A stretch of DNA of 64,000 bases, from contig NZ_CP044543.1 of assembly GCF_008932115.1 (NCBI RefSeq), positions 2,796,501-2,860,500 on the forward strand, read 5' to 3'. Position 1 is the first letter of the stretch. Each line of letters begins with the position of its first letter. This document shows, one piece after another, positions 33,313 to 39,367 of this stretch. The translations under genes and the position numbers were made by a program. The DNA is from Bradyrhizobium betae. Its GTDB lineage: Bacteria > Pseudomonadota > Alphaproteobacteria > Rhizobiales > Xanthobacteraceae. The notes under the pieces are model-generated. The model was not told the DNA's origin, ran no database searches, and saw nothing but the letters and a program-made list of their open reading frames with translations.

Positions 33313-33402
33313 AGTAGGGTGGGTTAGCGCAGCGTAACCCACCACGTCTCGTCGATCGCCGAACGTTCTTGGTAGGTTACGGCTTCGCCTAACCCACCCT
33401 AC
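33313..33402. repeat. Dispersed palindromic repeat, family C (copy 3)
   Basis: GTAGGGTGGGTTAGCGCAGC at the left matches the inverted CTAACCCACCCTAC at the right. The right part runs into the last codons of mtnA. It lies between the converging HAD and mtnA genes, where a bidirectional terminator would be expected. Confidence 0.85.
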
Positions 33403-34505
33403 GCTTCTTTCACCGCGATCCGCTCCGGAAAGGCGGCCGCCAGCGAAGCACGATCCGGCTTCAGCACGCCGCGTTCGGTGATGAGGCCGGTAACGAGCCG
33501 CGCCGGGGTCACGTCGAAGGCGTAGTTCGCGACCGGCGAACCTTCCGGCACGATCCTGACCGTCTCGAGCCGTCCATCGGCGGCACGGCCGGTCATGTCG
33601 GTCACTTCCACTCCGCTGCGCTGCTCGATCGGAATGTCGCGAATGCCGTCATCGACGGCGAAGTCGATCGTCGGCGACGGCAGCGCGACGTAGAACGGAA
33701 CGCCATTGTCGTACGCGGCAAGCGCCTTCAAATAGGTGCCGATCTTGTTGCAGACGTCGCCATTGGCCGCGACACGGTCGGTGCCGACGATGGCAAGATC
33801 GACCATACCGTGCTGCATCAAGTGCCCGCCGGTGTTGTCGGGGATCACGGTATGCGGCACGCCGTGATGGCCGAGCTCCCAGGCAGTGAGCGAGGCGCCC
33901 TGGTTGCGCGGGCGGGTCTCGTCGACCCAGACATGGACCTTGATACCGCGCTCATGCGCCAGATAGATCGGCGCCGTCGCGGTGCCCCAGTCGACGGTGG
34001 CGAGCCAGCCGGCGTTGCAATGGGTCAGCAAATTGACGGCCTCGCCCGGCTTCTTCGCTGCGATCGCCTCGATCAGCTTCAGGCCATTGTCGGCGATGCC
34101 GCGGTTGATCGCCACATCCTGTTCCGCGATCTCGTCGGCGCGCACATAGGCGGCCTCTGCCCTTTCCAGAGGGTCAATCGGCGTGAGCGTCGCACGCATT
34201 TCGTCGAGCGCCCATTTCAGATTGATCGCGGTCGGTCGCGCCACGACAAGCGCGTCGTAGGCGCGCTTCAAACCCGCATCCGAGGCATCCTCACGCATCG
34301 CGAGGGCCATGCCGTAAGCGGCGGTGGCGCCGATCAGCGGCGCACCGCGCACCAGCATGTCGCGGATCGCGACCGCTGCGTCCTCGCAGGAGGTCAGGCG
34401 CGCGACGACGAACTCGTGAGGCAGCTTGCGCTGGTCGATCGCGCCGATCGACCAGCCGTCACGCTCGCGCCAGATGCTGCGGAAATGCTTGCCGTCGACC
34501 TTCAT
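33399..34505 (-). CDS. mtnA: S-methyl-5-thioribose-1-phosphate isomerase
   Basis: A 368-residue cytosolic isomerase converting methylthioribose-1-phosphate to methylthioribulose-1-phosphate in methionine salvage. The eIF2B-like fold is recognisable by [47 protein letters not shown] and the catalytic stretch [19 protein letters not shown], holding the conserved Asp. ATG 34505. It lies 18 bases after mtnP in the same direction, so the first two salvage steps are one operon. The later genes of the universal pathway (mtnB, mtnC, mtnD, mtnK) are not in the window. Confidence 0.95.
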
Positions 34506-34523
34506 GGCATTCTGCCTTTCGTC

Positions 34524-35399
34524 TCAACCGCGCAGGATGCGCCCCGCCACCGCATCGAGCTTCTTCAGAAGCTCGGGATCACGCGCCTCGGGCGCCGTGA
34601 TCAGTGCGGTGTCGAGCGCGCGGTCCGAGCCAATCGGGCACGGCTCGTGCTCGCGCGGGAACTCCTTTGCCAGCCGCGCCACCAACGCCTTCGCCTTGTC
34701 GGCGTTTGTGGTCAGCACACGGATGATGTCCTGCACGGTGACGGCGTCGTGATCGGGATGCCAGCAATCGAAATCCGTCACCATCGCGACGGTCGCGTAG
34801 CAAATCTCTGCTTCGCGGGCGAGTTTGGCCTCGGGCATGTTGGTCATGCCGACCACGGAATAGCCCAGCGTTTTGTAGGTCATGCTCTCCGCGTAGGTGG
34901 AGAATTGCGGCCCCTCCATGCAGACATAGGTGCCGCCGCGCGCGATCGCGATGCCTTCGGCTTCGGCGGCCGCCGCGAGATGGATGCGCAGCCGCGGCGA
35001 GACGGGATGCGCCATGGACACATGCGCGACGCAGCCCCGGCCGAAGAACGAGCTTTCGCGCTTGTGGGTGCGGTCGACGAACTGATCGACGAGAACGAAA
35101 GTGCCCGGCGGCATCTCCTCCTTGAACGAACCACAGGCCGACAGCGAGATCAGGTCGGTCACGCCGGCACGCTTCAGGACATCGATATTGGCGCGATAGT
35201 TGATGTCGGAGGGCGACAGCCGGTGGCCCTTGTCATGCCGCGGCAGGAACACGATCGGCAGGCCGGCGATGGATCCGCGGCGCAGGGGCGCCGACGGCTC
35301 ACCCCAGGGGCTTTTGATCACCTCTTCGTGCGCGTCCTCGAGACCCGGCAGATCATAGATGCCGGAGCCGCCGATGATGCCCAATACCGCCTGCGTCAT
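34524..35399 (-). CDS. mtnP: S-methyl-5'-thioadenosine phosphorylase
   Basis: A 291-residue nucleoside phosphorylase that splits methylthioadenosine, a by-product of polyamine and quorum-signal synthesis, into adenine and methylthioribose-1-phosphate. The family signatures are IGGSGIYDLPGLE at the N-terminus, PRHDKGHRLSPSDINYRAN (phosphate binding), and SACGSFKEEMPPG. The base/ribose pocket GGTYVCMEGPQFST and GMTNMPEAKLAREAEICY complete the set. ATG 35399. It is the first gene of the mtnP-mtnA operon. The product feeds directly into MtnA. Confidence 0.95.
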   Translation of the reverse strand: MTQAVLGIIGGSGIYDLPGLEDAHEEVIKSPWGEPSAPLRRGSIAGLPIVFLPRHDKGHRLSPSDINYRANIDVLKRAGVTDLISLSACGSFKEEMPPGTFVLVDQFVDRTHKRESSFFGRGCVAHVSMAHPVSPRLRIHLAAAAEAEGIAIARGGTYVCMEGPQFSTYAESMTYKTLGYSVVGMTNMPEAKLAREAEICYATVAMVTDFDCWHPDHDAVTVQDIIRVLTTNADKAKALVARLAKEFPREHEPCPIGSDRALDTALITAPEARDPELLKKLDAVAGRILRG

Positions 35400-35565: not shown

Positions 35566-35838
35566 CTAGGCCGCGGTCGCCGGCTGCAGCTGGGTGGCGA
35601 CCATGCGCTCCAGCGTCTCCACGGATTGGAAATTCTCCGGCGTGATCTCGGACTGCGGAATGGTGAAGTCGAACTCGGCTTCGACGCCCAGCATCAGATT
35701 GACCATGTCCATCGAGGTCAGGCCCGCGTCGACGAGCTTTGCCGAAGGCGTGACATCTGCGGTGAGCGAATTCTGCTCGAGGATGCCCTTCACCAGCTTG
35801 ATGATGCGATTACGCACGTCGGTATCGAAGGCCTGCAT
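35566..35838 (-). CDS. Stand-alone acyl/aminoacyl carrier protein
   Basis: A 90-residue four-helix carrier protein. Ser42 in DAGLTSMDMV is the phosphopantetheine attachment site. The motif is LTSMDM instead of the DSLD(M/L) of the housekeeping AcpP, so this is a specialised carrier. ATG 35838 (MQAFDTDVRN) gives a normal length; the frame upstream is not carrier-like. It diverges from the acyl-CoA dehydrogenase, aa:CP ligase and GNAT genes across 354 bases. Small carriers beside such ligases are their aminoacylation substrate in B. japonicum (family knowledge). That this one is the substrate here is inference. Confidence 0.9.
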   Translation of the reverse strand: MQAFDTDVRNRIIKLVKGILEQNSLTADVTPSAKLVDAGLTSMDMVNLMLGVEAEFDFTIPQSEITPENFQSVETLERMVATQLQPATAA

Positions 35839-36192
35839 CGGCAATTCCCATCTGTCTGTCAAAGGTCGGACCGGTTGTCGGGTACGATGAGCACGACGGG
35901 CCGATCCCGCAATGGGCCGCACCATTACTTCGCGTTTCTTAGTAAACAATGACTCAGATTGTCCGGAATTCGAGCTTCTTCCAGATCCCTAACGCGACAC
36001 CCTGATCTTCGGCGATTCAAACAACCGGGCCTTAACTGTTCATTCGGAATTGCAGATCGTTTACCCTCTATTTCATCGACGAATTTGAATTAAATCCGTA
36101 GCCTCCAATCACAAGCAAGATAGTCGGATGATCGCGAACGGCATCGCAAATGATGCCTGCGGTTTCGAACGACGAAATGGAGGCGGACGAGC
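35839..36192. promoter_or_regulatory. A+T-rich divergent regulatory region of the carrier-protein cluster
   Basis: These 354 non-coding bases separate the leftward carrier gene from the rightward dehydrogenase gene. The stretch from about 35930 to 36130 is clearly richer in A and T than its surroundings. It contains GTTTCTTAGTAAAC and TTGAATTAAAT elements that could serve as promoters or operators. I see no reading frame or RNA gene and no confident -35/-10 assignment. The two sides are probably coregulated. Confidence 0.6.
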
Positions 36193-37407
36193 ATGAACGT
36201 GCGTGAAGCAGTCTTGACTGTCGACGAGGCGCAAGCGAGCCTTCTCGAAGGCCCCTCCTTGATCGAGCGCACCGCGCGCACCGCCACTGTGGCAGCCGCC
36301 GACGCCGACGCGGTCGATCGCGATGCCCGGTTCCCCCACAAGGCTTTCGACGCTGCGCGTGAGCAGAAGCTGCTCGGCGTCATGATCCCCGTCGAGTATG
36401 GCGGCTTCGGCGCTTCGATCCACGACGTCACGGACATCTGCTACACGCTCGGACGCGCCTGCGCCTCCACGGCGATGATCTACGCAATGCACCAGACCAA
36501 GGTCGCCTGTGTCATCAGGCACGGTCATGGCATCCCCTGGATGGAGACCATGATGCGCCGGGTCGCCCGCGACCAGTGGCTGCTGGCCTCCTCGACCACC
36601 GAGGGCCAGAACGGCGGCAACATCCGCGCCAGCGCCGCCGCCGTCGACCACGCCGGCGACACCGTCTCGCTGGTGCGCGACGCCACCGTGATCTCCTACG
36701 GCGCCGAGGCCGACGGCCTCGTCACCATCGCCCGACGCGCCACCGATGCGTCCGCGTCCGATCAGGTGCTGCTGGCGCTCGCCAAGGACGATTATTCGCT
36801 GAAACGGACGCTGGGCTGGGAGACGCTCGGCATGCGCGGCACCTGCTCGACCGGTTTCGAGCTGAAGGTCGACTGCCCCGCCGATCGCGTCTTTCCCGAA
36901 TCCTATGACAAGATCCACGCCCAGACCATGACGCCGTTCGCGCATCTGTGCTGGTCATCCGCCTGGGCCGGCATCGCCGCGGCCGCGGTGACGCGTGCGC
37001 AGGCCTTCATCCGCAAGGCGGCGCGCAGCTCCGGCGGCCAGATGCCGCCGGCCGCGGCGCATTTCACCGCCGCCAAAATGTCGCTGGCCAAGCTGCGCGC
37101 GTTGATTTCGGCCAATCTCGATGCCTTCGCCCGTGCCGAGCATGACGAGCGAGCGCTGAGCTCGCTCGACTTCCAGTCCTCGATCACGCTGTTGAAGGTG
37201 CAGGCCTCCGAGCTCGCGGTCGAAACCGTGATGCACGCGATGCGCACCGCCGGTCTTTCCGGTTACCGCAACGACGGCGAGTTCACCATGGGCCGCCACC
37301 TGCGCGACGTGCTGTCGTCGCCGATCATGATCAACAACGACCGCATCCTGGCCAACGCCGCGACATCGACGCTGATGAGCGGCGTGCCGACGAGCCTTCG
37401 AGACTAG
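36193..37407 (+). CDS. Acyl-CoA dehydrogenase-like flavoprotein of the carrier-protein cluster
   Basis: A 404-residue protein with the acyl-CoA dehydrogenase fold (LGVMIPVEYGGFGASIHDV; LASSTTEGQNGGNIRAS in place of the usual FAD-loop ALTEP motif). In the catalytic loop, where many dehydrogenases read EGT, this one has PIMINNDRI, so the classical glutamate is not there. The usual GGxGY segment is replaced by AGLSGYRNDGEF. ATG 36193 has GGAGG upstream. It is 66 bases before the aa:CP ligase. Related flavoproteins oxidise amino acids held on carrier proteins in some pathways, so an aminoacyl-carrier substrate is plausible but unproven. Confidence 0.85.
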   Translation: MNVREAVLTVDEAQASLLEGPSLIERTARTATVAAADADAVDRDARFPHKAFDAAREQKLLGVMIPVEYGGFGASIHDVTDICYTLGRACASTAMIYAMHQTKVACVIRHGHGIPWMETMMRRVARDQWLLASSTTEGQNGGNIRASAAAVDHAGDTVSLVRDATVISYGAEADGLVTIARRATDASASDQVLLALAKDDYSLKRTLGWETLGMRGTCSTGFELKVDCPADRVFPESYDKIHAQTMTPFAHLCWSSAWAGIAAAAVTRAQAFIRKAARSSGGQMPPAAAHFTAAKMSLAKLRALISANLDAFARAEHDERALSSLDFQSSITLLKVQASELAVETVMHAMRTAGLSGYRNDGEFTMGRHLRDVLSSPIMINNDRILANAATSTLMSGVPTSLRD

Positions 37408-37473
37408 AAAGCCTTCGTGACTGACGTGCCTTTGAGGCCAACAAGAATAATTTCAGATAGCAGGAAGTCGAAC

Positions 37474-38454
37474 ATGAACATTGCTGTTCTCCCCGATTCG
37501 CCCGAGACCGCGCCGCAAATCGTCGACCCGCTCGATCATCTCACCGACAAGCTGTTCCACGGCATGGGTGCCGACGGCGTCTATGCCCGCACCGCGCTTT
37601 ATGAAGGCGTCGTCGAGAAGCTTGCCGCGCTGATCACGAACCATCGCGAGGCCAGCACCGAGGTGATGCGCTTCCCGCCGGTGATGAGCCGCACCCAGTT
37701 GGAGAAGTCCGGCTATCTCAAGAGCTTTCCGAACCTGCTCGGCTGCGTCTGCGGCCTGCACGGCACCGAACGCGAGATCAACGCCGCGGTGAGCCGCTTC
37801 GATGCCGGTGGCGATTGGACCAGCTCGCTGTCACCGGCCGATCTCGTGCTGTCGCCGGCCGCCTGCTATCCTGTCTACCCGATCGCCGCGAGCCGCGGAC
37901 AGCTGCCGAAGGGCGGCCTGCGCTTCGACGTCGCCGCCGACTGCTTCCGCCGCGAGCCGTCAAAACATCTCGACCGGCTGCAGTCGTTCCGGATGCGCGA
38001 ATATGTCTGCATCGGAACGCCCGACGACGTCGCCGATTTCCGCGAGCGCTGGATGGTTCGCGCGCAGGCGATTGCGCGCGACCTCGGCCTCACCTTCCGC
38101 GTCGACTATGCCAGCGACCCCTTCTTCGGCCGCGTCGGCCAGATGAAGGCGGTGAGCCAGAAGCAGCAGCAGCTCAAGTTCGAGCTGCTGATCCCGCTGC
38201 GCTCGGAAGAGCAGCCGACGGCCTGCATGAGCTTCAACTATCACCGCGAACATTTCGGCACGACCTGGGGCATCCAGGACGCCAACGGTGAACCGGCCCA
38301 CACCGGCTGCGTCGCCTTCGGCATGGACCGGCTCGCCGTCGCCATGTTCCACACCCACGGCACCGACCTTTCCGCCTGGCCCGCCAAGGTGCGGGACATC
38401 ATGGGCCTGCAGCCGCAAGTCGCGGCCGATGCCCATGGCGAAGGCTGGCGCTGA
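37474..38454 (+). CDS. Amino acid:[carrier-protein] ligase (class II aminoacyl-tRNA synthetase homologue)
   Basis: A 326-residue protein resembling the catalytic core of a seryl-tRNA synthetase without a tRNA-binding arm. It should activate an amino acid with ATP and load it on the phosphopantetheine of a carrier protein. The putative zinc ligands are Cys131 (AACYPVYP), Glu176 (RMREYVCIG) and Cys279 (HTGCVAFG). These are the same residue numbers I recall for B. japonicum Gly:CP ligase 1. Class II motif 2 (FDVAADCFRREP) and motif 3 (GMDRLAVAMF) are visible. ATG 37474 has AGGAAG upstream. Likely amino acids are glycine or alanine by analogy. Confidence 0.93.
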   Translation: MNIAVLPDSPETAPQIVDPLDHLTDKLFHGMGADGVYARTALYEGVVEKLAALITNHREASTEVMRFPPVMSRTQLEKSGYLKSFPNLLGCVCGLHGTEREINAAVSRFDAGGDWTSSLSPADLVLSPAACYPVYPIAASRGQLPKGGLRFDVAADCFRREPSKHLDRLQSFRMREYVCIGTPDDVADFRERWMVRAQAIARDLGLTFRVDYASDPFFGRVGQMKAVSQKQQQLKFELLIPLRSEEQPTACMSFNYHREHFGTTWGIQDANGEPAHTGCVAFGMDRLAVAMFHTHGTDLSAWPAKVRDIMGLQPQVAADAHGEGWR

Positions 38455-38491
38455 GAGAACGAGGCCCTCCATTTCCACGGGTAAGACGAGC

Positions 38492-39367
38492 GTGATTCAC
38501 ACCAAGGTCCGATGCCGCGAGATCACCGAAGCCGACGTCGACGCAGTCGCGGACCTGCTGACGCGCGGCTTCGTCGGCCGCTCGCGCAACTACTGGATCC
38601 AGGGCCTGCGCCGGCAGGCCTTCCGGCCCGTGCCGGAGGGCTATCCGCGCTTCGGCTACATGATCGACAATGACGGCACGCCCGTCGGCGTGCTGCTGCT
38701 GATCTACACGGCGCGGAAAGACGGCGAACAGACCGCGATCCAGTGCAATCTGTCGAGCTGGTATGTCGACCCGGCCTACCGCAACTACGCCCCGCTGCTG
38801 ACCAAGATCGCGCAGCGGCACAAGGACGTGACCTATCTCAACATCAGCCCGGCGCCGTGGACCTGGCCGATCATCGAGACGCAGGGTTTTCGTGCCTATT
38901 GCCGTGGAATCTTCTTCTCGGTGCCTGCGCTGGCGCGCGCGCCGCGCTGGAGCAAGATCGAGGTCATTTCGCAGCACGCCAAGACGATCGAGGGGCTGAC
39001 CGACGAGGAGAGCGAGCTACTGACGCGGCATGCACGCTACAATTGCCTCAGCCTGGTCTGCCGCACGCCGAAAGGGACGTTCCCCTTCATCCTGCAACCG
39101 GTGCGCATCCGCCGCGGCTTCATCGCGCCGCCAGCGATGAAGCTGATCTACTGCCGCAGCGCCGCCGAATACACCGCCTGCGCGGGCCGCATTGGCCGGC
39201 TGCTGCTGCGGCTCGGCAAGATCGCGGTGGCCGTCGATTCCGACGGCCCGATTCCCGGCCTCGTCGGCATCTATACCGAGCGGCGCGGCAGGAAATATTT
39301 CAAGGGCCCGCACCGGCCGCAGCTTGCCGACCTCACCGACACCGAGCTCGTGCTGTACGGACCGTAG
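38492..39367 (+). CDS. GNAT-fold acyltransferase-like protein of the carrier-protein cluster
   Basis: A 291-residue protein following the aa:CP ligase by 37 bases. Its first half resembles GNAT N-acyltransferases (REITEADVDAVADLLTRGF; WYVDPAYRNYAPLL; LNISPAPWTWPIIETQGFRAYCRG). The second half is a further domain with GFIAPPAMKLIYCRSAAEY. GTG 38492 is the preferred start; an ATG at about 38430 lies inside the ligase gene. It could take the aminoacyl group from the carrier and pass it to an amine or sugar, which is inference from position. It could also be a diverged GNAT with another role. Confidence 0.75.
   Translation: MIHTKVRCREITEADVDAVADLLTRGFVGRSRNYWIQGLRRQAFRPVPEGYPRFGYMIDNDGTPVGVLLLIYTARKDGEQTAIQCNLSSWYVDPAYRNYAPLLTKIAQRHKDVTYLNISPAPWTWPIIETQGFRAYCRGIFFSVPALARAPRWSKIEVISQHAKTIEGLTDEESELLTRHARYNCLSLVCRTPKGTFPFILQPVRIRRGFIAPPAMKLIYCRSAAEYTACAGRIGRLLLRLGKIAVAVDSDGPIPGLVGIYTERRGRKYFKGPHRPQLADLTDTELVLYGP

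Follow-up and report, generated by a model that had tools for sequence, protein, structure and literature searches.

What does a nodulating bacterium do with an amino acid that it has loaded on a small carrier protein? The question is raised by a four-gene locus in Bradyrhizobium betae (contig NZ_CP044543.1, positions 2,796,501 to 2,860,500, here called the window, a stretch of 64,000 nucleotides analysed as a whole), in which an aminoacyl carrier protein (CP) stands with a flavoprotein, an amino acid:[carrier protein] ligase and a tandem-GNAT protein. In a 2022 review, the biological role of aminoacyl carrier proteins is still called unknown (PMC9437257, section 12). We consider it very likely that the window genes serve one pathway together with a distant operon of the same genome, and this is the best supported part of our reading. 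That the window locus is half of a two-carrier biosynthetic pathway, and that the GNAT joins the two halves, has in our view about an even chance of being right. Throughout, G numbers denote genomes and L numbers loci or stretches, G000 being the genome of the window.

All four genes were found where a first-pass annotation, made from the letters alone, had placed them. CP (35566-35838, minus strand, 90 aa, ATG start) is divergent from the other three across 354 bp (35839-36192), which from the gene spacing presumably hold the promoters of both CP and the flavoprotein-ligase-GNAT unit. On the plus strand follow the flavoprotein (36193-37407, 404 aa), the ligase (37474-38454, 326 aa) after 66 bp, and the GNAT (38492-39367, 291 aa) after another 37 bp. 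In one comparison, with a B. diazoefficiens locus (L001), the ratio of nonsynonymous to synonymous substitution rates (dN/dS) is 0.076 for CP, 0.096 for the flavoprotein, 0.085 for the ligase and 0.097 for the GNAT, which points to purifying selection on all four.

The first step rests on a pair of proteins that are well known. CP matches PF00550 (PP-binding), with its phosphopantetheine attachment site at Ser42 within LTSMDM, and has a full-length phmmer match to 4h2s_C, ‘Aminoacyl carrier protein 1’ (167.6 bits, E 2.3e-49); it is thus the specialised carrier that had been proposed. The ligase scores 485.9 bits against NCBIfam NF005479 (cut-off 357) and is near-identical to Bll0957 (3mey/4h2s; full-length phmmer match, 720.8 bits), of which it is the orthologue. 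It aligns with the type-2 SerRS 3w3s over residues 306-506 only, so the long N-terminal part is absent, and the description of a 326-residue class II synthetase homologue without a tRNA-binding arm holds. C131, E176 and C279, the presumed zinc ligands, are all present. In these two proteins there is no substantive difference from the Bll0957 ligase and its carrier. Since others showed loading by the near-identical Bll0957, we infer that the window ligase loads an amino acid on CP; Bll0957 is reported to use glycine. Earlier work on Bll0957 and its carrier reportedly concerned this loading, and is said not to cover the flavoprotein, the GNAT or the distant operon. In PMC10888616, the ligase and flavoprotein genes bll0957 and bll0958 are tabled as up in a B. 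diazoefficiens phaR mutant under low oxygen (fold change 3.0 for each), at transcript and protein level, and therefore the system is made in cells.

Evidence for a second half comes from the neighbours of the GNAT in other bacteria. Outside Bradyrhizobium, GNATs in several families recurrently stand beside genes for an AMP-ligase, for an SDR and for a second, small carrier (ACP2), joined in some cases by one for a thiamine pyrophosphate (TPP) enzyme. A profile (A4) built from 11 of these AMP-ligases has a strong match in the genome of the window, at G000:C1:2322196-2323551 (E 1.2e-202), about 0.5 Mb away. At this locus (L255) SDR, AMP-ligase, ACP2 and a second AMP-ligase (AMP2) all lie on one strand, and the same set was found in each of the 8 Bradyrhizobium stretches read. 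Strong matches to the GNAT (E <= 1e-40) and to the AMP-ligase (E <= 1e-60) occur in exactly the same 27 of 71 genomes, which came as sets of 13 and 58 that were chosen and not drawn. The A4 AMP-ligase is present in 10/10 GNAT-type genomes outside Bradyrhizobium, versus 1 of 41 in which the ligase is of the type accompanied by DUF1839 (PF08893), and that one (G540) also bears a GNAT. Nine genomes of one genus (f178/g245) have GNAT matches of E 1e-19 to 1e-35 and were counted as GNAT-negative by the threshold. The GNAT of this genus is divergent (L193, L195, L196, L219, L223, L226, L228, L229, L230), and in most of its stretches it adjoins another kind of small carrier, another AMP-ligase or both, so that the trio of GNAT, carrier and AMP-ligase recurs.

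At a second ligase locus, read in eight Bradyrhizobium genomes (L237, L238, L239, L240, L242, L250, L251, L252; ligase 77-83% identical), both halves lie in one combined cluster, and genes that are split over two places in the window’s genome therefore stand together there. CP, flavoprotein, ligase, GNAT, ACP2 and AMP-ligase are present in all eight, the SDR in seven (the eighth stretch ends there), MetY and/or MetA in all eight, and a class-IV aminotransferase or TPP enzyme is labelled in seven. The open reading frame (ORF) maps behind these counts, and behind the neighbourhoods read in other families and around the distant operon, come from a crude GC3-based caller; genes that it missed or mis-started (such as the ligase in L242 and L250, carriers, ACP2) were recovered by tblastn, and a missing label does not mean an absent gene. 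With MetY/MetA, the aminotransferase and the TPP enzyme, these clusters have the style of natural-product clusters. A rhizobitoxine-like product, an idea that arose from MetY/MetA in the second locus and the O-acetylhomoserine-sulfhydrylase domain associated with rhizobitoxine, is not claimed here.

Within the genus the four genes are inherited as a unit. Among the best 80 of 155 ligase relatives in the genome collection, which were kept as fetched loci, CP, flavoprotein, ligase and GNAT have the same order and strands in 80/80. By title these loci are from Bradyrhizobium except L004 (Frankia sp. RB7) and L051 (a Bradyrhizobiaceae metagenome-assembled genome); L004 is a 95% identical Bradyrhizobium locus, probably mislabelled or from a mixed assembly. 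Upstream, two genes that look by sequence like MtnA and MTAP, of methionine salvage (window 33399-35399), adjoin CP in 77 of these loci, all but L039, L043 and L047, and elsewhere MetY/MetA adjoin the ligase or the GNAT. Because MtnA and MTAP are kept as well, synteny within the genus proves little and largely reflects common descent; the cross-family pattern is the stronger evidence. A window-type locus occurs twice, in opposite orientation, on NZ_JAFCKS010000003.1 (L006 and L009; G554:C16:536641 and 922623, with the same identities), which may reflect a recent inverted duplication of a large segment or else an error of assembly.

In a sample of 126 Bradyrhizobium genomes (GNAT threshold E <= 1e-20) the ligase was found in 82, the GNAT in 83 and the AMP-ligase in 83. 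Ligase and GNAT occur together in 81; the ligase lacks a GNAT once (G553, with a DUF1839-type, or type A, locus), and the GNAT lacks a ligase twice (G544, broken, and G590). The suggestion that the four genes co-occur was therefore upheld, with all four together in 80/80 loci and a GNAT match in 81/82 ligase-bearing Bradyrhizobium genomes, as expected of genes gained and lost together. Ligase and the unlinked AMP-ligase agree in 121/126 genomes (80 with both, 41 with neither); the exceptions are two with ligase alone (G553, type A, and G565, decayed) and three with AMP-ligase alone (G544, broken; G590; G632, partial). Among the genomes that carry the ligase, some (G565, G663) have a broken GNAT. 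Decaying copies with a broken GNAT were seen in L248 (G544), L253 (G565) and G663. In G544 the AMP-ligase also has an internal stop and the ligase gave no match, which looks like the joint loss of an entire pathway.

Across families, the ligase comes with one of two partners. In an order sample of 259 genomes, with the ligase counted over its cut-off, 52 carry it: DUF1839 is present in 38 of these, always within 0.5 kb of the ligase, and all of the other 14 match the GNAT profile (A1) at E 1e-42 to 1e-171. Of these 14, 10 have the GNAT no more than about 6 kb from the ligase and 4 (G070, G432, G481, G503) have it elsewhere. Among the 38 genomes with DUF1839, ten match the GNAT too, namely G540 (E 5e-66) and the nine of f178/g245 (E 1e-19 to 1e-35). 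Conversely, of the 28 genomes with a GNAT match 24 carry the ligase, the exceptions being G473 (strong) and G324, G365 and G399 (weak). In a class sample of 289 genomes the ligase was over its cut-off in 7, the GNAT in 6 and DUF1839 in 3: ligase and DUF1839 in G186, G280 and G283, ligase and GNAT in G000, G070 and G140, GNAT without ligase in G071 (weak), G187 and G246, and ligase with neither partner in G131. The last (L097) has no DUF1839, GNAT (A1) or AMP-ligase in its genome, and its carrier has an odd motif, GLTSHGSVDLM. DUF1839 was not found in G000, so the window locus is not of the DUF1839 type. Distant ligases (28-33% identity) in L101-L105, from other families and with no flavoprotein in the stretch by tblastn, probably belong to other pathways.

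The two types also differ in the ligase and the carrier themselves. In a tree of 59 ligases the 22 GNAT-type rows form one clade with 100/100 support, opposite the other 37 (36 DUF1839-type and G131). As read from this tree, the split is one evolutionary event, which makes the two kinds of locus sister types and not the result of repeated swaps; a repeated replacement of DUF1839 by the GNAT was rejected on this ground. The carrier motif S[MLV]D[ML][VM][NG]LM (type B) is present in 10/10 GNAT-type carriers, reading GLTSMDMVNLML in the window CP. Of the 25 other carriers, 24 have SF[AG]S[VI]Q[LFV]M, the exception being G131.

What DUF1839 does may tell us, by analogy, about the window. A structural model of DUF1839 (from 65 sequences, pLDDT 92.2) matches the AziU3/U2 complex, CtaG and CcbD in Foldseek at a probability of 1.00, the best E being 6.5e-7 and TM about 0.5 to 0.65, and Cys33 and His149 are invariant in the alignment. 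CtaG and AziU3 turn a carrier-bound acyl group into an amide outside the condensation domain of a non-ribosomal peptide synthetase (NRPS). The lincosamide condensation enzymes CcbD/LmbD do likewise, and CcbD uses a catalytic Cys to couple an amino sugar with an amino acid that is bound to a carrier (PMC12945683). All of these resemble DUF1839 and not the window GNAT. DUF1839 has already been called papain-like, with a guessed link to glycans, in PMC10318531. In a note added in proof in 2010 (PMC2922099), Atu2574 (DUF1839) was predicted to build an amide on a sugar of the cell surface, and the redox enzyme to oxygenate the amino acid. Our modelled fold supports an amide-forming role in the sister type, and bears on the window locus only by analogy.

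The second gene in the proposed route is the flavoprotein, for which both PF02771 and PF00441 are over cut-off. The first-pass description as a dehydrogenase is right as to these acyl-CoA-dehydrogenase domains; as to function the name is doubtful, as the canonical catalytic Glu near the C-terminus, a mark of acyl-CoA dehydrogenases, is absent in 47/47 aligned flavoproteins (46 from fetched loci and that of the window). An alternative, isovaleryl-type position for the Glu was judged by eye only. Just after the missing Glu position an N382-D383-R384 is invariant in the 47, as is H251, a candidate for a base in place of the Glu. KijD3, an N-oxidising relative, is among the four best solved matches at E <= 1e-9 (3m9v, 4kcf), a weak sequence match. 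The window protein thus shares Pfam domains and a sequence match with a superfamily that includes such N-oxygenases. Since the Glu is lacking, and since glycine, if that is the substrate, has no beta carbon, oxygenation or oxidation at N or C-alpha seems more likely than alpha,beta-dehydrogenation.

The GNAT is the least familiar of the four proteins. Its 291 aa are counted from a GTG, a start chosen because most homologues have about 291 aa; a longer frame (359 aa from 38288) overlaps the ligase. It matches nothing in Pfam or NCBIfam at E <= 0.001 (Pfam gave a single chance-level row, E 0.26), and no PDB sequence at E <= 1. The GNAT fold that had been suspected is seen in an AlphaFold2 model (pLDDT 87.4), which Foldseek and VIA-align show to be a tandem GNAT. 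Like Eis, MAB_4324 (7q3a) and the clavulanic-acid tandem GNAT 2wpw, it has two GNAT domains per chain, although identity to these is 9-15% and the window family lacks the glycines of the pyrophosphate loop. In GNATs that depend on acetyl-coenzyme A (acetyl-CoA) this loop has the motif Q/RxxGxG/A; in the window protein it reads R97-N-Y-A-P-L, and Gly is absent at 100 and at 102 in 113/113 aligned homologues. The missing CoA-pyrophosphate glycines are compatible with a carrier-bound rather than a CoA donor, and are not proof of it. A LuxI-like synthase using S-adenosylmethionine, suggested by the methionine genes of the window (MTAP/MtnA) and of other loci (MetA/MetY), was dropped; there was no LuxI-type structure among the Foldseek and VIA-align matches listed, which is not decisive.

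On this evidence we propose a route in which the ligase would activate a small amino acid and load it on CP, and the flavoenzyme may then oxidise the CP-bound aminoacyl group. Judging from the families of its enzymes, the distant operon (AMP-ligase, ACP2, SDR, AMP2) would load and tailor another acid on ACP2. The tandem GNAT would then form an amide between the two carrier-bound units, with a carrier protein and not CoA as acyl donor. Of these steps, the precise reaction of the GNAT is the least secure. In its most specific form, the free-standing tandem GNAT would be a condensation enzyme between two carriers, joining an ACP2-bound acid to an oxidised CP-bound amino acid in a dissociated assembly line that has no condensation domain. 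Most Bradyrhizobium would encode this line at two unlinked loci, others in a single cluster with MetA/MetY, and it would yield a metabolite of the symbiont; this form is tentative, and we regard it as possible rather than probable.

Several observations weigh against a GNAT that joins the two halves. In G187, G246, G473 and G590 the GNAT and AMP-ligase occur without the ligase, so the CP half is not needed there, and G540 combines a DUF1839-type ligase locus with an unlinked GNAT and AMP-ligase. The nine f178/g245 genomes have a divergent GNAT match without an A4-type AMP-ligase, and L195, L196, L223 and L226 from four of them, as well as other stretches, show a different ACP and AMP-ligase beside the GNAT. 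The counts, moreover, are not independent, because Bradyrhizobium genomes share ancestry and the GNAT/DUF1839 split is one event on the tree, and the 71 genomes behind the match of GNAT and AMP-ligase were chosen. The first-pass idea that the four genes form one route survives in so far as they are kept and lost together; they are not the whole pathway, given the distant AMP-ligase, ACP2 and SDR. Its further idea, a GNAT that transfers the loaded amino acid, remains a conjecture; the tightest partner of the GNAT is the AMP-ligase/ACP2/SDR set, also in genomes that lack the ligase.

Other explanations share much of this evidence. The GNAT might be the counterpart of DUF1839 and hand on the oxidised aminoacyl group of CP to the amino group of a sugar or of another small amine, as the 2010 note has it for the DUF1839 type, the ACP2 module adding a separate acyl decoration to the same product. 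The complementary partners of the ligase (DUF1839 in 38/52, within 0.5 kb, and the GNAT in the other 14), the CP recognition motif that differs between the two types, and the likeness of DUF1839 to AziU3/U2, CtaG and CcbD, the last of which has an amino sugar as the acceptor of its carrier-bound amino acid (PMC12945683), would all fit, as would sugar-related neighbours: a polysaccharide deacetylase at the GNAT locus L099, a Wzx-like flippase adjoining CP in L179-L181 and a GH2 protein in type A. However, the GNAT is bound more strictly to AMP-ligase and ACP2 than to the ligase, the partner split is a single event on the ligase tree, and no sugar or glycan gene adjoins the window locus, for which reason a sugar acceptor in the window itself was set aside and is retained as a rival only. 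We find this explanation doubtful.

If, on the other hand, the GNAT N-acylates an amine (the released CP product or another) from acyl-ACP2, CP-bound intermediates would never be its substrate. The direct adjacency of GNAT and ACP2 agrees with this, as do the four genomes with GNAT and AMP-ligase and no ligase (G187, G246, G473, G590). Yet a GNAT-type ligase was never found without a GNAT match in the 259-genome order and 126-genome genus samples, and in the window the GNAT is the gene directly after the ligase; we judge this account unlikely. Mere neighbourhood by common descent, with unrelated functions, would explain why MtnA and MTAP are likewise kept in 77/80 loci, but hardly why the same genes stand together in other families with other flanks, or why unlinked members share their presence and absence, and it appears very improbable.

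How much of the two-carrier pathway is new? The ligase/carrier pair was already known, and so was the idea of an amide-forming pathway for the sister type, so that the first-pass view of an undescribed pathway holds in part: no direct description of this pathway or its product was found in the open-licence PMC literature, while part of the idea had been printed in 2010 for the DUF1839-type sister (PMC2922099). That system (Atu2571-Atu2574-like) has, like the window, carrier, flavoenzyme and ligase in one locus, with an adjacent amide-forming transferase predicted. It differs in having a papain-like CcbD/CtaG-like transferase where the window has a tandem GNAT, and the ligases fall in separate clades (100/100). 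Of two further papers, PMC11941606 lists Atu2573 among hub genes and gives nothing on function in its available part, and PMC10817482 has nothing on the function of this system in the part available. New, as far as the open papers searched show, are the partition between GNAT and DUF1839, the fold match of DUF1839 to CcbD/CtaG as applied here, and an obligatory second carrier module encoded at a separate locus.

For Bradyrhizobium, this means that a ligase/carrier pair solved at atomic detail now has partners to be named within its own genome, the GNAT and the distant operon of carrier, AMP-ligase and SDR, and that the transferase of the sister system belongs to a known mechanism class. An old question can now be put to direct test in a symbiont of the soybean type for which mutants exist, and the answer would bring to light either a novel metabolite of nodulating bacteria or a novel route to an amide bond between carrier proteins.

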